Shown in pieces: positions 22,812 to 38,214 of a DNA stretch of 64,000 nucleotides. Source of the stretch: Proteus columbae (GTDB lineage: Bacteria; Pseudomonadota; Gammaproteobacteria; Enterobacterales; Enterobacteriaceae); NCBI RefSeq assembly GCF_009914335.1, contig NZ_CP043925.1, forward strand, positions 2,728,001 through 2,792,000. The letters run 5' to 3'. Within the stretch, counting starts at the first letter, position 1. The number at the start of each line of letters is the position of its first letter. The position numbers and the translations under genes are program-made. The notes under the pieces are model-generated. The model worked only from the letters and a program-made list of their open reading frames with translations, did not search any database and had not been told where the DNA came from.

Positions 22812-22871
22812 GTTTCAATGACCCGTCCTGAATAAGGTTGACACTTTTCCAATCTGAAATTGGAGAGTGTA

Positions 22872-23279
22872 ATGAAACCAATCACTAAACGAACTCAACG
22901 CGATTATTCTCTCGCTTTTAAATTACAGCTTGTTGACCAAGTTGAAAAAGGCGAAATAACCTATAAACAAGCCCAAGATCGCTATGGTATACAAGGATGC
23001 TCTACTGTTTTAGTTTGGCTTCGTAAGCATGGTAGGTTAGATTGGTCAAACGGTACCCCTGATACTTTTTATAGAGGTTCAGCTATGACCCAATCTTCTG
23101 AACAACAAACGCCGGAACAACGCATTAAGATCCTTGAAAAGGAACTTGAAGAGGCTCGGCTTAAATCCGATTTCTTCGAAGCAGTGGTTAAAGTCATGGA
23201 TAGAGACTTTGGAGTTCGTTTGTCAAAAAAGCGCAAAGCCGAGTTATTAAAGAAAAAACGGTTAAAAACCTCACCGTAA
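22872..23279 (+). CDS. IS3-family transposase OrfA
   Basis: 135 residues from the ATG after GGAGAG; the TTG upstream is rejected. Helix-turn-helix DNA-binding protein (YSLAFKLQLVDQVEKGEITYKQAQDRYGIQG), then a leucine-zipper-like helix (EQRIKILEKELEEARLKSDFFEAVV) for multimerisation. A heptamer A AAA AAG at 23225-23231, in the correct phase, is the usual -1 slippage site and gives the OrfAB transposase. Probably binds the terminal repeats and regulates transposition. Confidence 0.93.
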   Translation: MKPITKRTQRDYSLAFKLQLVDQVEKGEITYKQAQDRYGIQGCSTVLVWLRKHGRLDWSNGTPDTFYRGSAMTQSSEQQTPEQRIKILEKELEEARLKSDFFEAVVKVMDRDFGVRLSKKRKAELLKKKRLKTSP

Positions 23280-23296
23280 CAATTGCTTGCCGTTTT

Positions 23297-24082
23297 ATGC
23301 AGATCAGCCGACAGGCTTATTACAAGAGACTGGATAGAACTGAGGAACGAAAGAAAGCCGATTCGGCCATCATTGATGCTGTTAAATCTGAACGAGTCTT
23401 ACAACCTCGACTGGGTGGGCGTAAATTACATTTTATTTTAAAGCAAAAACAGATGGTTATTGGTCGTGATCGGCTATTTTCTTTATTGAAGGAACATCAG
23501 TTACTGGTGCCTAATAAACGGGCTTATCATCGAACAACCTTAAGCCATCATCGTTTTTATCGGCATCCAAATTTAATTAAGTCAGGGTTTATCCCCACAC
23601 AACCAGAACAGCTTTGGGTAGCAGATATTACCTATTTATCGACGCATGAAGGTGATACTTATTTAAGTTTAATTACGGATGCGTATTCACGAAAAATCGT
23701 GGGATATCATTTAGATAACAATATGAAAACAAGTTCAGTGAAGAAATCGTTGGTTCAGGCGTTAAAAAAACGGACTTCGACAACTTCGTTAATCCATCAT
23801 TCAGATCGAGGAATACAGTATTGTTCTTCAGAATATCAGGAGATACATAAAGAGCATAATATTCAATGCTCTATGACTGATGGGTATGATTGTTATCAAA
23901 ATGCCTTAGCAGAACGAATTAATGGAATATTAAAAATGGAGTATCTACTGATAAAACCGAGTAATCTGGAACAAGCAAGAAAATTAGTAGAAGAATCAAT
24001 CCAACTCTATAATGAAAAACGGCCACACTTATCGTTAAACTATAAAACGCCCGATGAAGTACATCGAGCGTTTTATGCCTGA
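23297..24082 (+). CDS. IS3-family transposase OrfB (catalytic part)
   Basis: 261 residues from an internal ATG, normally made as the C-terminal part of OrfAB by frameshifting; the frame is open back to the slippage site through KNLTVTIACRF. The integrase fold shows the DDE triad: Asp in WVADITYL, Asp in HHSDRGIQY and Glu in NALAERINGILK. The HTH_21 segment precedes it (GGRKLHFILKQ...). Complete, with no stop codons. A 25-bp piece of the same sequence recurs at 30919-30943. Confidence 0.94.
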   Translation: MQISRQAYYKRLDRTEERKKADSAIIDAVKSERVLQPRLGGRKLHFILKQKQMVIGRDRLFSLLKEHQLLVPNKRAYHRTTLSHHRFYRHPNLIKSGFIPTQPEQLWVADITYLSTHEGDTYLSLITDAYSRKIVGYHLDNNMKTSSVKKSLVQALKKRTSTTSLIHHSDRGIQYCSSEYQEIHKEHNIQCSMTDGYDCYQNALAERINGILKMEYLLIKPSNLEQARKLVEESIQLYNEKRPHLSLNYKTPDEVHRAFYA

Positions 24083-26590: not shown

Positions 26591-27601
26591 ATGAAAAAAA
26601 ACAGGAAAAACAACCTATCAGAAATTACACCTGAATCTGTTTTTATGATGAAACGACGTAATTTACTAAAATTATTAGGCATCGGCGCTGCTGGAATAGC
26701 GGTTTCATCCACTGCAAAAGCCGATTTATTTTCATGGCTTACTGAAGATAACAAACCAACAACACCAAAATCATCCCGTAAAGAATTACAATTTATTCAA
26801 CCTGAAGAATATCAATCTTCATTACAATTAACTCATGAAGATAAAGTAATCGGATATAACAATTTCTATGAATTTGGCCTTAATAAATCCGATCCTGCTA
26901 AGTATGCACACACAATGAAAACAGAAGAATGGACATTAACTATTGATGGTGAAGTTAATCGCCCACTTACTTTAAACTTAGACGATATTAATCATAAATT
27001 TCAATTAGAAGAACGTATCTATCGTATGCGTTGTGTTGAAGCATGGTCGATGGTCATTCCCTGGGTCGGTTTTCCATTAGCGAGCTTACTTTCTTTAGTT
27101 GAACCCAATAGTCGTGCAAAATATGTTGCCTTTGAAACGCGTTATGCACCACAGGAGATGCGCGGACAAGATAGTCGCTTCATTGGCGGCGGTTTGCAAT
27201 ACCCGTATATCGAGGGATTAAGACTCGATGAAGCGATGAATCCACTCACATTATTGGCGACAGGGGTATATGGAAAATCCTTGCCAAACCAAAATGGTGC
27301 ACCTATTCGCCTTGTTGTTCCGTGGAAATATGGATTTAAGGGGATCAAATCCATTGTCAAAATTCGTTTAACTGAGTCAATCCCACCAACAACGTGGAAT
27401 CTTTCAGCACCGCATGAATATGGTTTTTATGCAAATGTTAATCCAGATGTTAGCCATCCTCGTTGGTCACAAGCAACAGAACGCTTTATAGGCACAGGTG
27501 GATTAGGTCAAGTTACAAGACAACCAACATTATTGTTCAATGGCTATGGCGACCAAGTCGCACATTTATATAAAGATTTAGATTTGCGGAGAAATTTTTA
27601 A
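26591..27601 (+). CDS. msrP: Periplasmic methionine sulfoxide reductase, catalytic subunit MsrP
   Basis: 336 residues. A molybdopterin enzyme that repairs oxidised methionines in periplasmic proteins. A twin-arginine signal ([24 protein letters not shown]) directs folded export. The oxidoreductase domain has Mo-ligand Cys148 in [11 protein letters not shown] and continues through [22 protein letters not shown] to [11 protein letters not shown], as in E. coli (334 residues). The stop overlaps the msrQ start by one base. Expression is probably controlled by HprR at the palindrome upstream. Confidence 0.97.
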
Positions 27602-28212
27602 TGCAACCAATATATGGAATAAAAGTTAAGTTATTAAAAACCATATTCCATCTTATTGGTTTATTGGCTTTCACTTGGCTTATTTATACAATTTATACGC
27701 AAAATTTCAGCGCAGATCCTTCAAAAGATATTCAGCATTTTACTGGAATTACAACGTTACGTTTATTAATTATATTAGCTCTGATCCCTATGGTTGCCTT
27801 TTACTTAAAATTAAACACATTATTTCAAGTAAGAAAACTATTAGGATTATGGTGTTTTTTTTGGGCTAATTTACATTTAGCAAGTTATCTGCTACTTGAA
27901 ATAGGTTGGGAAAATATTACTTTCTTTTTTAGCGAAGTTTTTTCCCGTATTTATCTTATTATAGGCGCTTTATGTTGGATAATTTTATTATTGATGGCTA
28001 TAAGTTCATTTGATTGGTTAAAAAATAAATTTAATCAAGAATGGAAAAGAATACATAATCTTTTTTATCCACTCTTATTATTAGTCTGTATTCATTATTT
28101 TTTATCATTAAAATCGCCAACACCAGAGCCTATTATTTATCTAATTATTATTGGATTAACTTACCTTTTTCGCTTTTGGCAACAGAAAAAAAACAAATCA
28201 ACTAATATATAA
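27601..28212 (+). CDS. msrQ: Haem-binding membrane subunit MsrQ
   Basis: 203 residues. Integral membrane b-type cytochrome that passes electrons from the quinone pool or flavin reductase to MsrP. Six hydrophobic segments. Candidate haem-ligand histidines are in WANLHLASYLL and LLLVCIHYFLSLK, within the ferric-reductase-like fold. ATG overlaps the msrP stop, so the two are co-translated. Followed by a terminator. Confidence 0.94.
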   Translation: MQPIYGIKVKLLKTIFHLIGLLAFTWLIYTIYTQNFSADPSKDIQHFTGITTLRLLIILALIPMVAFYLKLNTLFQVRKLLGLWCFFWANLHLASYLLLEIGWENITFFFSEVFSRIYLIIGALCWIILLLMAISSFDWLKNKFNQEWKRIHNLFYPLLLLVCIHYFLSLKSPTPEPIIYLIIIGLTYLFRFWQQKKNKSTNI

Positions 28213-28259
28213 AATAGCCTACCCACCAATTTAATTCTAATATTATATAAATGATCTTG

Positions 28260-28285
28260 TTAAAGCCTCATTTAAGAGGCTTTAA
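28260..28285 (+). terminator. Terminator of msrPQ
   Basis: TTAAAGCCTC pairs with GAGGCTTTAA around a 6-base loop, 48 bases after the msrQ stop. Confidence 0.75.
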
Positions 28286-28325
28286 CAAATTGTAATAAAC
28301 TAAATAGTTGCCTATCAATTCAGTA

Positions 28326-30563
28326 TTAGAAATACAATGATATATCCATAGAAAAATTACGCCCAGGAGCAGTAAAACGTTGTAAACCAAGACGATCACG
28401 ATCTATTTGATTTGTTGTACCAAATTCTGGCAGACTTCTTAATGCATCCCAAGTACTATATTTTCTATTAAATAAATTAAAAACCCCAGCACGTAATACA
28501 ATATTTTTATTTACATTATAGTAAGCTGTTGTGTCAAATATAGTATAAGAATCACTAAGATATGGCCATTCACGACCATTCCGTATTGCTTGATTACCTT
28601 CTTTTCGTGCTGAATAAGTCATAAATATCCCTGCACCATATTTTTTATCCGCATTATCATAAGATAAGGAAGAAACCCATTTAAAAGGTTGTACAGAAAG
28701 TAATGAATCTCCAGAAGCATCTTTTCCGCGTGTATAATTAAATGTATTACGCAATATATATGTATTATCTAAGCCGAATATTTTAGAAAGCCGAATTTCA
28801 TTCGTTAGCTCAAAACCATAAACGTATGCTGAGGCAACATTACTATATTGAAGATGATTTTGTGGTAATGTTGGCTTATTCCAATAACTATCGCCCATAT
28901 TAGGATCATACCACGGATTAGGAACTTGTTTTTCGCTCTGCTTAAGATCAATAAAGTTATTGTATTTAGTATAATATACATTTACTTTATTAAATAATTT
29001 ATCATTATTATAACTTAATGATATTTCATTACTTAATCCTTTTTCTTGCTTTAAATTAGGGTTAGGCTCTAAGCGATTACGAGCATCATTACCTCCATAA
29101 TCAAAATAAAGCTCTTGAGCTGTTGGAATACGAAAACCCTGCCCAATTTTATATTGGAAAGTATAATTTGGTGTTATGTTATAACTGGTTGATAATGCCA
29201 AAGATAAAGCCTGATAATGATTATCAGTGAGATCGCTATCTTTCGCTAAAGATAATTTAGCATTATCTGTATGATGAGAAACATTATCATATCTACTGCC
29301 TAAAACTACATTTAATTTGTCATCAAACATTTTTATTTCATCAACAAAAGCAATACTAATATCTTGAGTATATACAGGTCTGATGATGCTATAATTAGAT
29401 TGATAAGGAACTTTAGGCTTTCCTAGATATTTAGTATCTATATTTTTATTGTTAATTGTTTTTGTAGAATATGAAGTTCGTAGTGCTAATGAGTGCGTTG
29501 TATTAAATAAAGATAATGGCATTAATACTATTTCATTATTAATAAACCTACCATATTGAATGATATTCCTACTATTTTCTTCAAAAATATCATAATAATG
29601 ACCATTATAATGTTCATCAAACGTAGAGCTAAATGCTTTTTGTTCTATTTTTTGCCAATTAAAGCTTGTCGTCATACTGTCAATATATCTTTCTGGAGTC
29701 CACGTATCAGAGAGTGTATATCTAATTCTTTTTGATAAATCATCACCAGTACGATAATAGGAAGAAAATAAGTACCAAGATTTTTCATCTGTATATGTTT
29801 TACCCTCACTGTATTCAAAAGTAGCACCTATTTTATGGTTTTGAATACCTAATAGATTAATTTTTGATAGTAAAGAATGACGCGTTTTTTCTTGAGGATC
29901 TGGTGTTCCCCTAGCAGAACCGAATATATCATTTTCATGTTTATAATTATTAGTTTCATGCCCATTACGATAAACATATAAGAGCATCCCTTCTACATCT
30001 TGTTGGGAAGTTGCAATACCTATCGTTTGCATTTTTTCATTATTTTTAGAAGTATAAACACTACGAGAAACAAATCCCCAATTACCTTCACTAATCAAAT
30101 CAGCAGGATCTTTAGTAACGTATTTTACAGCCCCTCCTAATGCTCCACTACCTGAAAATATAGAATCAGCACCCTTAGATATAATTACAGACTTTAAATG
30201 TTCTGTTTCGATATCATTCATACTTCCATTAAAATAACCATAACCTTTATAAATGGTATTATCGAAGGTTTCTGCTTGAGGGATATCATCAACCTGTATA
30301 GCAACACGATCTTTATCAACACCTCTTATTGCATATCCATTATTACCAAAACGTCCTTCGGATGAGACACCGACACCAGGAAGATGGCGAACAATATCTT
30401 CCATGCTAAATATTAAATTTTTTTCCAATTGTTCTGAATTTAATGTTTTTTCATTAATTTTTTCTTCTTTTTTTTCAATCACATAAAGAACATCTTCAGA
30501 TATAGCTTTATTATTAAAAAAAACTATCGAGGTAACAACTAGATAGAGTAACGTTTTTTTCAT
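28326..30563 (-). CDS. TonB-dependent haem/haemoglobin-type outer-membrane receptor
   Basis: 745 residues from the ATG after AAGGAG; the GTG two codons upstream lacks this spacing. The signal peptide ends near NNKAISED. A plug domain follows (MEDIVRHLPGVGV, YAIRGVDKDRVAIQVDDIPQAE, SGALGGAVKYVTKDP). The 22-strand barrel ends in FSMDISLYF with a terminal Phe. The IRGVDKDRV motif and overall pattern fit the haemoglobin/transferrin/lactoferrin receptor family; the ligand is inferred. No haem transport partners are adjacent. A near-perfect Fur box lies upstream. Confidence 0.85.
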   Translation of the reverse strand: MKKTLLYLVVTSIVFFNNKAISEDVLYVIEKKEEKINEKTLNSEQLEKNLIFSMEDIVRHLPGVGVSSEGRFGNNGYAIRGVDKDRVAIQVDDIPQAETFDNTIYKGYGYFNGSMNDIETEHLKSVIISKGADSIFSGSGALGGAVKYVTKDPADLISEGNWGFVSRSVYTSKNNEKMQTIGIATSQQDVEGMLLYVYRNGHETNNYKHENDIFGSARGTPDPQEKTRHSLLSKINLLGIQNHKIGATFEYSEGKTYTDEKSWYLFSSYYRTGDDLSKRIRYTLSDTWTPERYIDSMTTSFNWQKIEQKAFSSTFDEHYNGHYYDIFEENSRNIIQYGRFINNEIVLMPLSLFNTTHSLALRTSYSTKTINNKNIDTKYLGKPKVPYQSNYSIIRPVYTQDISIAFVDEIKMFDDKLNVVLGSRYDNVSHHTDNAKLSLAKDSDLTDNHYQALSLALSTSYNITPNYTFQYKIGQGFRIPTAQELYFDYGGNDARNRLEPNPNLKQEKGLSNEISLSYNNDKLFNKVNVYYTKYNNFIDLKQSEKQVPNPWYDPNMGDSYWNKPTLPQNHLQYSNVASAYVYGFELTNEIRLSKIFGLDNTYILRNTFNYTRGKDASGDSLLSVQPFKWVSSLSYDNADKKYGAGIFMTYSARKEGNQAIRNGREWPYLSDSYTIFDTTAYYNVNKNIVLRAGVFNLFNRKYSTWDALRSLPEFGTTNQIDRDRLGLQRFTAPGRNFSMDISLYF

Positions 30564-30590
30564 AAACACTCCTTAATTAAGGTATTGAAT

Positions 30591-30609
30591 GATAATTATA
30601 ATCATTATC
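30591..30609 (-). promoter_or_regulatory. Fur box of the haem-type receptor
   Basis: GATAATTATAATCATTATC matches the 19-bp Fur consensus at 18 of 19 positions and is centred 37 bases before the receptor start. Indicates iron repression. Confidence 0.9.
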
Positions 30610-30737
30610 ATTCAATTCAATAAAAGGAATTGTAATACAATTGAAAATTTAGTTGTTTTATCTAATTAATAACAAATTAATTATATTTATGTTTACATAT
30701 ATTAATTTAAATGCATTCTTTAAGAATAAAAAAACAC

Positions 30738-30827
30738 AAAATCATAAGCTGCAGTCTTAACCTCAATTGCCTCTTCCATACCTTTAATAATTAAATCAGC
30801 TAATTCACTCCACCTCATATGGCGTAG
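30738..30827 (-). pseudogene. Fragment resembling the C-terminal part of isocitrate dehydrogenase (icd)
   Basis: Reading on the minus strand gives 30 codons starting [12 protein letters not shown] and continuing [18 protein letters not shown], then unrelated residues and a stop. E. coli Icd near its C-terminus reads LRHMGWTEAADL, IVKGMEGAINAK, TVTYDF, so 21 of 30 residues agree (compared from memory). No upstream part of the gene is present; the frame meets a stop just before. The icd 3' end is a known attachment target for phages (for example e14 and phage 21), so this may mark a lost integrated element. Confidence 0.7.
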
Positions 30828-30918
30828 CCATTATATATCGCCATTACTTTTAACTATCTGTTTATGTTGTTTTATGAAAATCACTGGTAAGCCTATTACA
30901 AACGTCAAGATATGTCTG

Positions 30919-30943
30919 ATAAACGGGCTTATCATCGAACAAC
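30919..30943 (+). pseudogene. Scrap of IS3-family orfB
   Basis: 25 bases are identical to 23514-23538 inside orfB of the complete IS and encode KRAYHRTT. Similarity fades after about 20 more bases (HHH). A remnant of a related insertion, not a full copy; no terminal repeats seen. Confidence 0.75.
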
Positions 30944-30976
30944 ACTCTATCACCATCATTGAAACCATCAATCTCA

Positions 30977-31265
30977 TTACTTGCGAAAAGGAGAGAACTG
31001 GTAATCAACAATATATACCCCCATAGCCCCTGTTTTTACTGTTACCCATACTGTTCCTTGGTTTTCGATTTTGAATTGCTAATACAAAGTAATTTCCACC
31101 GTTCTGTAGAAATTTTTTTATCCATATACCGTAGTCACATCGGCCAAATTGGTTAGTGCTAAAGCCCGGTGATGTGATCTCATATTCAGTTTGAATATCA
31201 AAATACCCACAATGATATTTCTTTATGGCAGAAAAATAGGTACTGCAAAGGTAATGTAACGACAT
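30977..31265 (-). pseudogene. Broken unidentified gene remnant
   Basis: On the minus strand an 86-codon frame (31265-31005) reads YFDIQTEYEITSPGFSTNQF in its middle. From 31078 to 30977 a different minus frame reads QFKIENQGTVWVTVKTGAMG, a beta-rich pattern that looks more protein-like than the first frame over the same bases. This suggests one gene broken by a frameshift near 31080-31150. I do not recognise the family; it could also be chance. Confidence 0.3.
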
Positions 31266-31329
31266 CTAAAGCTAATGTCACAGGAAGTAATACTCGGGCA
31301 ATTTTTTCCCCAAACGAGTTTGATTTAGT

Positions 31330-31440
31330 ATGATTAATTTAACACAACTCACCAAACTAGATTTACGTTGGAACAACTTCACCAAAGAACCATCAATAAT
31401 AAACAAATTAAGAAATAATGGATGTATTGTTTTTATATAA
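31330..31440 (+). pseudogene. Leucine-rich-repeat C-terminal fragment
   Basis: Reads MINLTQLTKLDLRWNNF then TKEPSIINKLRNNGCIVFI and stop. The LxxLxLxxNxF pattern is a bacterial leucine-rich repeat, and the KLRNNGCIVFI ending is like the last capping stretch of such proteins. An in-frame stop three codons before the ATG (31321-31323) shows that only the tail remains. Could be expressed as a 36-residue peptide, but no clear ribosome site is present. Confidence 0.5.
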
Positions 31441-31596
31441 AAATTAATTAATTATATATTTATTCTCGACTATAAAAATAATTTTCCAGTGGTTCTTCCT
31501 ATTTTAGGATAGATACACTGGATTTATTTTATAGCTAGGATCAAATCGGATTTCAATTTTAAATAAGTTTTCGAAATTAAAAATCTTTTATTTTCT

Positions 31597-32484
31597 CTAA
31601 AGAGTAATAATCTTCGTGCCTATCATTGTCGCTTTTCCACCCACTCTAACTCGACTAATTGTATTTTCTGTTGAATCAATAATAACGTGAATAAGAGAGG
31701 AACATTGCATTGCACGCCCTTGCTCTAATAAAAAATGTGTTTGATGAGGGAAAACATGCTTAACAAGATAGCAGCCTAAAGCGCCACTAGAACTCCCTGT
31801 TGCAGACTCTTCATTGATGCCATATAAAGGCGCAAAGTTACGACAATGAGCAGTGATTTCTTTATCTTGGCTAAACTCAAAAACATGAAAACCAATAGTA
31901 TTAAATTCACGACTTAAGTTTGCAATTGCTTCAAAATTAGGTTTTAGCGTATCTAATTTCCCAAATTGTACAGGGATCAAAATATCAGGTAGTCCCGTTG
32001 AAAATATCTCAATGGGTAAGCCTGTTTCTGAAATAGTTTCGCAATTTATTCCCAGTGCTGCAGCCACTGCATCGATATTTGGAGCTTGTCGTGAAACTGG
32101 CAGTGTTTGCTCCATAACGACATTTTCATCATCAATTGCGACGCTTAAAATACCTGCTTTCGTTTTTTGTGTGTAATGGCCAGAAGCCAATAAGTTGAGT
32201 GAAGATAAAGTAAAAAATACCGCTAATGTCGCATGACCACAAAAATCGACCTCTCCTTCAGGAGTAAAAAAATCAACTTTAAAATCAGTCTCTTCACCTT
32301 GATAAACAAAAGCTGTTTCAGAAAACCCAACTTCTTTCGCGATAGCAATTTTCTGCTCATCACTTAATTGAGGAGGGTTAAGTACCACGCCAGCAGGATT
32401 GCCACCTTTATTATTTCGAGTAAATGAGTTTACAAGGTGTACTTTGATCTCGTGCTCTACTGAGCGTATAGCTTCATTTTGCAT
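31597..32484 (-). CDS. PhzF-family isomerase/epimerase
   Basis: 295 residues. Two-lobed diaminopimelate-epimerase fold of the PhzF family. The N-terminal NSFTRNNKGGNPAGVVL motif, VGFSETAFV (the Glu that acts as general acid/base in PhzF) and VDFCGHATLAVFF are seen; the C-terminal lobe has ESATGSSSGALGCYLV. Members catalyse proton shifts, but most enterobacterial ones have unknown substrates. No phenazine genes are nearby, so phenazine synthesis is not implied. Confidence 0.9.
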   Translation of the reverse strand: MQNEAIRSVEHEIKVHLVNSFTRNNKGGNPAGVVLNPPQLSDEQKIAIAKEVGFSETAFVYQGEETDFKVDFFTPEGEVDFCGHATLAVFFTLSSLNLLASGHYTQKTKAGILSVAIDDENVVMEQTLPVSRQAPNIDAVAAALGINCETISETGLPIEIFSTGLPDILIPVQFGKLDTLKPNFEAIANLSREFNTIGFHVFEFSQDKEITAHCRNFAPLYGINEESATGSSSGALGCYLVKHVFPHQTHFLLEQGRAMQCSSLIHVIIDSTENTISRVRVGGKATMIGTKIITL

Positions 32485-32551
32485 ATATTTCCCGCATTGC
32501 TTCGAATAGCATTAAATCTGTGTATAAAAATAGAGTGTTATAAAATACGCA

Positions 32552-33133
32552 TTAATTAGGGCAAACTTCTGACACGCCATCTAGCCCTTGTTGTCTTTGT
32601 TCAAATACGACGCTTTTTTTATCCCCTTCTCGGATAATTTTTAAGATATAAATACTATCAAAATCACTACTTTTCCATTTAGGAATTAATTTAGGATCGC
32701 CTCCCTCTTGTTTCATAATATCTCGCGCAACCTTGGTTAAATTATCATGCTCCCATGCAATAAAAATAACCGAATTTTCATACTGTTGACTTAACAGTTC
32801 CTCACGTAATGCTTTTATCTCTTTAGCATGATATTGAAGATGAATAGGCAATGAGGTTTTAATAGCGATAGGTGAAATCGTTTGGAGTGAACGCAATGAA
32901 TTCCCTAACTTACTCTGTTTAGGTGCCGCGGCGAATAATGCATCAGGTTTGCCAAATTGATTTATAAGCACGTCGGGTAGGGCTAATGCTCTATTTAACC
33001 CTTTACAGGTCAGTTGCCCACTATCATTATCAGGTTTTTCACCATGTCTTATAAAAACCAGTGTTTGATCGGAATACGCCATATGACTAAATCCTAAAAT
33101 AAATACGCTCAAAAATATCAATACACTGCGCAT
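32552..33133 (-). CDS. Secreted histidine phosphatase family protein
   Basis: 193 residues with a signal peptide (to about HMAYS, residue 21). The phosphoglycerate-mutase-like core starts with LVFIRHGEKPDNDSGQLTCKG: RHGE contains the phospho-accepting His. IFIAWEHDNLTKVARD carries the second histidine of the active site. A periplasmic phosphatase with unknown substrate, shorter than phytase or acid phosphatase. Upstream of phzF on the same strand, 67 bases apart. Confidence 0.87.
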   Translation of the reverse strand: MRSVLIFLSVFILGFSHMAYSDQTLVFIRHGEKPDNDSGQLTCKGLNRALALPDVLINQFGKPDALFAAAPKQSKLGNSLRSLQTISPIAIKTSLPIHLQYHAKEIKALREELLSQQYENSVIFIAWEHDNLTKVARDIMKQEGGDPKLIPKWKSSDFDSIYILKIIREGDKKSVVFEQRQQGLDGVSEVCPN

Positions 33134-33638
33134 ACAGCGTTACCTTTAAGTCAATTGAGTATAAGAAATATGGGAAGTCAAAACACATCTAATATTAACC
33201 ATAGACTCACCGAGTTTAAGCCACTCAGTCTATCATAGCCAAAAGTGTTTCAGCGGTGAGCAAGTTTTTGATAGCGCATATTTAACCATTTTTATACTCT
33301 GTTGATCTTTATTCTACCTTCTAAACACCCCAAAATTAATTAACAAAATTAAAATAGACCAAACAATTGTTAACAGAAAATAAAGAGTTTTTTAATTTTT
33401 TATTACTTTACATCCAAATTTATAAAGCTAAATGAAACTTAAATACTCAGCACATTTAGATAAAAAAATGGAGGAGATCTCTTTTTTACAATAAAAATAA
33501 TATGTTAAAAATCAATGTAAGCCTTTTTATCTCCCTTTATTTAGTTTAATGACTAAAGTTCTGCCACTGCTTACCGATACTGTTTGTTCTTAAATAAGTT
33601 ACCAATACTTATTAATTATTATTTATCCAGGGTTAAGC
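33134..33638. other. Intergenic region before the chemoreceptor
   Basis: 505 bases of AT-rich DNA between divergent genes. Contains the sigma-28 promoter at 33554-33580; otherwise I see no gene or repeat. Confidence 0.5.
33554..33580 (+). promoter_or_regulatory. Sigma-28 (FliA) flagellar promoter
   Basis: TAAAGTTC, 11-base spacer, ACCGATAC. The class 3 flagellar consensus is TAAAGTTT-N11-GCCGATAA, so 7/8 and 6/8 match at the exact spacing, 58 bases before the chemoreceptor ATG. Confidence 0.85.
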
Positions 33639-36234: not shown

Positions 36235-37134
36235 TTACAGCTTTAATGTGTCAGATAAATATTGAGTTAAACTATCAATAAAAACGCGGATACGTTGGCT
36301 CACCACGCGATCACTATAATAAACAGCATGAAAAGGTAATGGTATAGATTGTAATTTATCGCTAAATAGCTCAACTAGTTTGCCTTCTTGAATATCTTTA
36401 TTCACCATAAAATCAGATAAACAAGCAATCCCTTCACCACTCACGCATAATTGCCTTAATGTTTCGCCACTGTTTGAAGATATCCCTTCTGTTACCGTAA
36501 TTAATGCATTTTTTTCGATTTCTAAAGGCCATGTATTTAATGAAACAGGCTCAGTAAATGTTAAACAAGTATGTTCGCTCAATGCTTGCGCTGTTGTCGG
36601 AATTCTTTTTCGCTCTATATATTTTGGTGAAGCAATAATTTTACGATAGCTATTAAATAAAGGGCGAGCACGTAAACTTGAGTCTGTTAAATGGCCAACT
36701 CGTATGGCCACATCCACTTTACGCTCAATTAAATTCACAAAAGTTTCTGATGAGACTAATGACAAAATAATATCAGGGTATTGTTGGCGAAAAATAGAAA
36801 TAAAAGGGATCAACATATGTAATACAACAGGGGTAGCCGCATCGATACGCAGTAAACCTTTAGGTGAATTTTGTGTGCCATATAACTCATTTTCAGCGGC
36901 TTGCATTTCCTGCAAAATAACTTTCATTCGCTGAAAATAAAGTTCACCTTCTACGGTAAGATCAATTTGGCGGGTCGTTCTATTCAGTAAATTAACACCT
37001 AATTTATCTTCTAATTTCTTCACTGTTCGGCTAACGGCTGAGTTAGCCAGATTCAGTTTATCAGCTGCTTTTGTAAAGCTTTTATGTTCCACAACTTCAA
37101 CGAATACTCTCGCTTCTTCTGACGTTGCTTTCAT
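36235..37134 (-). CDS. LysR-family regulator, YafC-like
   Basis: 299 residues from [20 protein letters not shown], the start used by E. coli YafC; an in-frame ATG 18 codons upstream adds non-family residues. Winged HTH ([27 protein letters not shown]) then the periplasmic-binding-type effector domain ([40 protein letters not shown]). Similar to YafC throughout. Lying between mdaB and the ygiN-like gene, it may control them, but this is only inferred from position. Confidence 0.9.
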
Positions 37135-37380
37135 ACAATAAGTCCCAGTGCTATCAGGTAGTATATTGGGATTTAAGGATACGGACATTTTTTTATTATT
37201 GCAATTAAGTTAATAGTCAAGGGAGAATAGTGAGTTATTGTAAATAGTGTGAATGGTATAAATAAGCGTGACTACTTAAAAAACAAGCAGATATACATAA
37301 TGTACATCTGCTTAAATCATGGTTTAAACATAAAATTTTTATTTAAAATAATAAGACACATTAACGGAGGGTAAATAAAA

Positions 37381-37671
37381 TTAGGCTAATTTTTCAACAA
37401 ATTTGATATCTAATAATTCAATTTTATCTTTTAGGTTTTCAACAAACGCTTTCATATGTGCCGTTTCATTGTGTTTATCGATAGCGCTCTGGTTTTCCCA
37501 TATTTCAAAGAAAATAAAGGTTCTTGGTTGAGTGGTATCCTTATGAAGTTCATACTGGATACATCCTTCATCTTTATGGCTTGGTTTTATCATTGCTTTG
37601 CAAGCAGATAACACTTCATTTTCATGATTTTCTTTTGCCACAATCGTGGCAATTAATCTGACATTATTCAT
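37381..37671 (-). CDS. Antibiotic-biosynthesis-monooxygenase (YgiN-like) quinol monooxygenase
   Basis: 96 residues from MNNVRLIATIVAK; the longer ORF adds 16 unlikely residues. Small ferredoxin-like alpha/beta barrel dimer of the ABM family. Conserved features are GCIQYELHKD, FIFFEIWENQSAIDKHNETAHMKAF with the central His. E. coli YgiN oxidises menadiol and cycles quinones with MdaB, and the partner gene is close by. About 8 residues shorter than YgiN. Confidence 0.85.
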   Translation of the reverse strand: MNNVRLIATIVAKENHENEVLSACKAMIKPSHKDEGCIQYELHKDTTQPRTFIFFEIWENQSAIDKHNETAHMKAFVENLKDKIELLDIKFVEKLA

Positions 37672-37785
37672 ATGAAATCCTATATTCCAACATAAGTGTA
37701 AATGACAAATAAATAACAACCTGAAATTACTCTAGCATAATTCTTTATTTCATTATTTACATTTAGGCAAAAATAGCTACTTGTT

Positions 37786-38214
37786 GTGATTGGATTAGGA
37801 TTTACCGTAGGTAATTACTTAGGGGGTAAGTTATCGGCAAAAGGAATTGATAGAACATTAGTGATGTTTTTTATATTACTGATTTTATCAATGATCCTTT
37901 TACCCTTAGTTTCAAATCATTTGTTCTTAACGATTATCACTCTTTTTATTTGGAGTGTGGCGAGCTTCGCCCTTGTTCCACCACTGCAAATAAAAACAAT
38001 GCAGATAGCCCATGATGCACCGGGTTTAGTTTCATCAGTAAATATCGGTGCATTTAATTTAGGCAACGCTATTGGAGCCGTTATTGGCGGAGTTGCTTTA
38101 AAATACAGTTGCAACATTGTCCCTTTAAGTGCGGCCTTAGTTGGGATCATTGGTTTATTACTGGTTTTTGCTCAATATAAAGTGAAAAGAGAACCACAAA
38201 GAAGCTTGGCTTAG
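37786..38214 (+). pseudogene. 5'-truncated MFS transporter
   Basis: 142 codons from a GTG at 37786. Four or five membrane segments equal to the C-terminal third of a 12-segment major-facilitator drug or sugar efflux protein (GNYLGGKLSAKGIDR, LVSSVNIGAFNLGNAIGAVIGGVAL). An in-frame stop (37774-37776) just upstream and absence of the first eight segments show that the 5' two-thirds is lost. The remaining frame is intact, so the loss may be recent. Followed by a good terminator. Confidence 0.8.

Follow-up and report, generated by a model that had tools for sequence, protein, structure and literature searches.

A probable relic of a phage 21/e14-type prophage end, carrying part of an icd 3' end, between ssrA and a phzF-like gene of Proteus columbae

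Between ssrA and a phzF-like gene of Proteus columbae lies a row of gene scraps, one of which is a piece of the 3' end of icd, the gene for isocitrate dehydrogenase (Table 1). The locus was studied in a window of 64,000 nucleotides, i.e., bases 2728001-2792000 of a genome that consists of one contig of 4,114,477 bases (G000). It was compared with a genus set of 20 Proteus genomes, drafts among them, including P. alimentorum 08MAS0041 (G001) and P. columbae 08MAS2615 (G005), and a family sample of 119 genomes served for the icd C-terminus; the P. mirabilis stretches compared were unannotated DNA. The names flagellin, thrS, LysR, transporter, cas1 and IS3, as used here, are readings of open reading frames (ORFs) by eye unless based on Pfam.

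Table 1. Coordinates of the scraps in the window
Feature	Position	Strand	Basis
Piece of the icd 3' end: first 30 of the 53 codons after the phage 21/e14-type crossover	30738..30827	-	peptide and DNA matches, shuffles
Phage attachment arm adjoining the core, consensus seen ATAAACAAATAGTTAA...TATATAATG	30828..30865	-	as beside displaced icd ends
Two-ORF insertion sequence relic with internal deletion, IS3-like by eye	30865..30943	+	kin to intact copy at 22860-24082
Phage tail-fibre 3'-end scrap, 15 residues	30943..30987	-	E 2.5e-4
Membrane-protein-like gene relic, family P0002/P0003	30980..31193	-	no Pfam or PHROG match
Relic of a 225-aa ORF, lipoprotein-like by eye	31216..31327	-	79% to G009 ORF; 90% to G002 DNA
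Leucine-rich-repeat (LRR) gene 3' end	31327..31450	+	93.5% over 124 bp; open in G009 (L036 7453-8328), LRR domains

A preliminary description of this DNA had likened thirty minus-strand codons to the C-terminal region of isocitrate dehydrogenase, and this was borne out, with its coordinates: the 30 residues form a stop-free translation that is identical to the icd C-terminal region at 22 positions (73%, E 3e-9 in a search of the own genome). The translated search that had been proposed as a check indeed retrieved two places besides the fragment itself: the intact native icd (an open frame of 417 amino acids), which the peptide matched at 1621864, and, at 1664296, a displaced icd 3' end. The identity and E value just given hold for each of the two. 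At the DNA level, 71 of 88 bases (81%) of the fragment were identical to native icd (E 8e-19), and its bit score of 83.3 compared with a maximum of 30.1 when 1000 mononucleotide shuffles of the fragment were scored against native icd. It was likewise correct that the rest of the gene is missing and that icd is far away, since native icd lies at a distance of 1.14 Mb and the fragment, with 30 of the 53 codons that separate the crossover from the icd stop, is not complete to the stop codon. The start of the fragment is also telling: the native and displaced icd sequences become alike at the LRHM codons, which is where the window fragment begins. The integrase of this system would recombine inside icd at a point 53 codons before its stop.

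When 20 loci were scanned, the fragment differed by 17-21 bases in 90 from each of 12 distinct Proteus icd ends, which had been chosen by a pattern demanding the usual ATGGG, and it was 73-75% identical to coliphage icd ends (best 20 of 26 records). It is thus closer to the Proteus ends than to those of coliphages. No donor can be named, the 12 Proteus ends being about equally distant. In the annotated collections, no phage or plasmid record covered 80% of the fragment, and the plasmid set gave no megablast match to 28300-33200. At 33075-33086, twelve bases repeat part of the core region exactly in inverted orientation; they lie inside an open frame of 193 amino acids and were taken as chance.

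The related stretch is in fact longer than the thirty codons, as the match continues for another 38 bp, to 30865, through a phage arm situated directly before the core. This extension matches the DNA that precedes displaced icd ends in seven genomes (G001, G002, G005, G006, G009, G010 and G012), and for six of these the match was inspected as an alignment or displayed. With the arm plus core as query, 13 places were hit, spread over 9 of the 20 genus genomes; by-eye reading placed eight of them next to whole or partial displaced icd ends and the other five elsewhere. The latter are the window itself, a prophage among flagellin genes in the same genome, two places in P. alimentorum, and one in G013, where the match is to the arm only and is weak (E 5e-5). 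The intact prophage at icd in the own genome retains just the last few bases of the arm at its icd end, and its phage must therefore have another arm. In phage 21, the alignment covers the icd piece plus about 10 bases past it.

In the own genome, a prophage occupies icd and has displaced the icd 3' end 42.4 kb beyond native icd; the integrase beside the native icd 3' end contains Arm-DNA-bind_1 and Phage_integrase domains and is 72% identical to phage 21 Int, and it is at icd that the close matches to the icd-type integrase in this genome are found. After the displaced end at 1664296 come the 68 final codons of another integrase (94% identical), which may be taken as a sign of stacked elements. 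Within the same prophage region (L006 14704-18683), the displaced icd end has beside it a reverse-transcriptase-like ORF of 408 amino acids and a pair of ORFs that resembles a sulfotransferase-like/ParB-like gene pair, both as read by eye. Among the 119 family genomes, 75 matched the icd C-terminus. Extra icd ends on the contig of native icd numbered 11 in this sample, and 10 of these were within 50 kb, the remaining one being the window, at 1.14 Mb; eight more extra copies were on other contigs and could not be placed.

In Escherichia coli, the e14 prophage is described as displacing an icd 3' end of 163 bp in the relevant passage of PMC6379469, and a passage of PMC12803456 places a lambdoid prophage at the phage 21 site in icd. 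The integration point of e14 and phage 21, which leave an icd'/icdC-type pseudogene end, is the same as the one seen here, and their integrase family is present at icd in this genome; the movement of the icd 3' end to the far end of the element is likewise repeated in the own icd prophage. In contrast to the window, however, their displaced end borders a prophage at icd, whereas the window keeps 90 bp, 1.14 Mb away and free of a prophage. The displaced icd ends of Proteus (G002, G006, G009, G012 and others) share with the window the arrangement of arm, core and icd end with a tail fibre ahead, but the window copy stands apart from them by the 17-21 bases given above and by being truncated and off-site. 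In phages of this type the icd end lies beside int. It is annotated so in phage 1W, and in phage 21 the icd match lies 187 bases past int. Of 80 viral contigs, 10 have an icd end on the strand opposite to int and less than 400 bp from its 3' end. Among the remaining 70, the sequence breaks off within 18 bases of int in 69, and a single contig has 820 bases there and no icd end. Since phages carry an icd end beside int, the join of arm and icd in the window could be either attR or attP, and as its icd end stops at 30 of the 53 codons, the two are indistinguishable for this fragment.

Among the scraps beyond the arm, the tail-fibre scrap gave no PHROG match on its own. At the same locus, however, P. 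alimentorum retains 48 residues of a tail-fibre end, with 83-87% identity to tail fibres in icd-prophage regions (E about 1e-25 to those of G002, G006, G009 and G012) and a PHROG tail-fibre match at 2.9e-17; the assignment of the scrap in the window is secure only through this copy. In the same four genomes, a tail fibre lies 2.9-7.0 kb before the junction of arm and icd in the same orientation, and G012 has a second one past the junction. The order and orientation of tail fibre, arm and icd end in the window are therefore as in the related Proteus icd prophages. Thus, the preliminary view of the icd piece as the only remaining mark of its element did not hold, since the arm and the tail-fibre scrap adjoin it and the own genome also has a prophage in icd. 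The insertion sequence relic matched G008 (L038) with 93.7% identity over 63 bp and 80% over 45 bp, and matched window positions 23508-23538 with 93.5% over 31 bp. The intact two-ORF insertion sequence at 22860-24082, which has an rve domain, lies directly downstream of ssrA.

The region between ssrA and the phzF-like gene is a variable zone in Proteus, and the window retains scraps of several of the genes found there. The P0002/P0003 family was found in the variable zone of 6 of the 20 genomes and not in icd prophages. Its members are membrane-like proteins of about 190 amino acids, present in one or two copies in the zone (L029 6583-8467 in P. alimentorum, and in G008, G013, G015, G007 and P. 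mirabilis); the P. mirabilis member, a P0003 relative, lies between ssrA and the next conserved gene. In G009, the phzF side of the zone carries cas1-like and CRISPR-like ORFs, an LRR gene and an autotransporter-like ORF. The stretch upstream of that LRR gene (L036 2935-6250) contains the cas1-like ORF and ORFs in which CRISPR-like repeats are translated (VHCRIGSLE, FLSCLCGSE). The idea that an island had inserted at ssrA and left a second ssrA end close to the phzF-like gene was considered and rejected for want of a good match: between 22.7 and 34 kb, the final 20 bases of ssrA were matched at no more than 12 (plus strand) or 13 (minus strand) positions.

Comparison of the locus between genomes gave a view of its decay. 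P. alimentorum and the window are 98.5% identical from 27000 through 30801, a stretch that includes 64 bp of the icd fragment, and the arm is gone from the P. alimentorum relic. Within the shared 64 bp, eight changes from native icd are common to both relics, which have two and three changes of their own, and at one site all three sequences differ. Ten bases of the fragment are absent from all 12 distinct Proteus icd ends. Thirteen of its codons differ from native icd, eight of them non-synonymously, whereas the native and displaced icd of the own genome differ over the same stretch by three synonymous codons and no non-synonymous ones. These codon changes, together with the comparison of the two relics, indicate that the fragment is unconstrained. 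It either predates the split of the window genome from P. alimentorum or has passed between them. In G005 the two flanks (27000-30747, and from 31598) are present, separated by about 95 bp that hold none of the scraps.

We regard the fragment, with a probability of roughly 0.86, as what decay has left of the right end (attR, or the corresponding half of attP) of a phage 21/e14-type lambdoid prophage, stranded between ssrA and a phzF-like gene. On the minus strand, tail fibre, arm and icd end follow one another as in a right end that has lost its middle. This upholds the earlier suggestion that an icd-specific integrating element, since lost or relocated, left the piece behind: its first codons are those at the integration point, and it carries the arm of the element. 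The integrase that had been hoped for nearby is absent from the window: when 277 ORFs from icd-type prophage regions were used as tblastn queries, no trace of an integrase or excisionase was found in the window, and the six queries that matched at E <= 1e-4 did so at 36-38 kb, in two other genes. Since no integrase or excisionase of the family is present in the window, the locus is classed as the relic of an element, not as an element. Besides this absence, several findings count against this explanation. The tail-fibre scrap of the window has only 15 residues and lies beside an insertion sequence relic, and the adjoining P0002/P0003 relic is of a variable-zone family and not of an icd prophage. 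Against attR in particular, the fragment does not lie within prophage length of icd, which is 1.14 Mb away.

As for the route, homologous, illegitimate or insertion-sequence-associated recombination, and not the integrase, would have brought a phage end, or a mosaic phage carrying one, into the variable zone downstream of ssrA; most of the entered end would then have been deleted, and the rest would be drifting without function. Because the window has no trace of an integrase and the G005 junction no core-like site, we infer that the likeliest route was such recombination of a phage end into the zone, directly or via a mosaic phage.

Integration of lambdoid phages at secondary sites is known, and with arm and core both present, an icd-type phage might instead have used its own integrase to enter here, at a core-like secondary site, and later been deleted down to one end. 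We regard this as improbable, and reject integration by the integrase at this place, on two grounds. Within 360 bp of the G005 junction, the core was matched at 8 of 14 positions at best, which was the commonest value in 500 shuffles, although the junction may itself represent a later deletion, which qualifies the missing core-like attB. Moreover, an attR made in this way should show local DNA past the core, but 88 bp of icd are found instead. A marginally poorer candidate is a chromosomal rearrangement, inversion or translocation, that brought the right end of a prophage from icd. Something must have moved this fragment, given that the other extra icd ends on the same contig are within 50 kb; however, the flanking TonB receptor and phzF-like genes keep their order in P. 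alimentorum and also in the scrap-free G005, and by the same tblastn analysis no other prophage genes accompanied the fragment. Chance similarity, or duplication of icd free of any phage, might be suspected from the shortness of the fragment but has next to no probability, as none of the 1000 shuffles came near its score, ruling out a chance match, and the match begins at the crossover and extends into the phage arm, which already contradicts such an origin.

The preferred reading, recombination of a prophage right end into the zone, has a partial counterpart in the prophage among flagellin genes of the same genome. Its arm and core (2388024-2388112) are 89% identical to those of the window over 55 bp and, like those, lie off icd; unlike the window copy, they have no icd end, adjoin a Slam gene and a lipoprotein-like ORF, and lie within a prophage not matched by the icd-integrase query. 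This prophage shows that such ends can travel. It is the second lambdoid prophage of the genome (G000:C1:2387465-2428000; L028, L045 and L046) and has a truncated flagellin gene at its left edge; besides the icd-type arm and core, its cargo includes the Slam (SlipAM) gene with the lipoprotein-like ORF and a DNA polymerase III theta-like ORF. In P. alimentorum (G001:C41:1-1470; L031), the lipoprotein-like gene and an arm (83% over the arm) lie near a thrS-like gene, and the other end of that contig is the flagellin-gene version, i.e., the contig ends in a repeat. The lipoprotein-like gene beside off-icd arms occurs in 3 of the 20 genomes; among the matches listed, no copy is near icd, and the G007 copies are on small separate contigs. 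We tentatively raise the rather doubtful possibility that right-end blocks (cargo and arm, with or without an icd end) shift between Proteus integration sites by phage mosaicism. If so, the five off-icd arms would record past module exchange, and such arms could also, in principle, draw the icd integrase away from icd.

The locus is clearly a fossil, in an unusual place, of the well-known system by which e14 and phage 21 integrate at icd, and nothing points to a present function or a new mechanism. A 90-base stray of a housekeeping gene could nonetheless be traced to one integrase family, and off-icd copies of the arm offer a cheap marker of past phage recombination. That icd is a busy integration site in Proteus is seen from the 12 of 20 genus genomes, some of them drafts, that by our own count have at least two icd 3'-end matches. 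In the literature, a row of a table in PMC3091717 includes mdtC/icd among the plasticity sites of Photorhabdus and Xenorhabdus; the main text of PMC3636060 does not mention icd, and an icd-end relic away from icd in Proteus was not found among the titles and opening parts of abstracts of the papers listed.

Two further features of the window may be recorded. At 30577-30623, just before the TonB-receptor gene, there is an imperfect inverted repeat with arms of 23 nt, Fur-box-like by eye. At 36235-38214, a LysR-like gene shares 76% identity with a G009 ORF from the icd-prophage region (L033 2404-3303), and the short transporter-like ORF beside it matches only the C-terminal part of another ORF from that region (46%).
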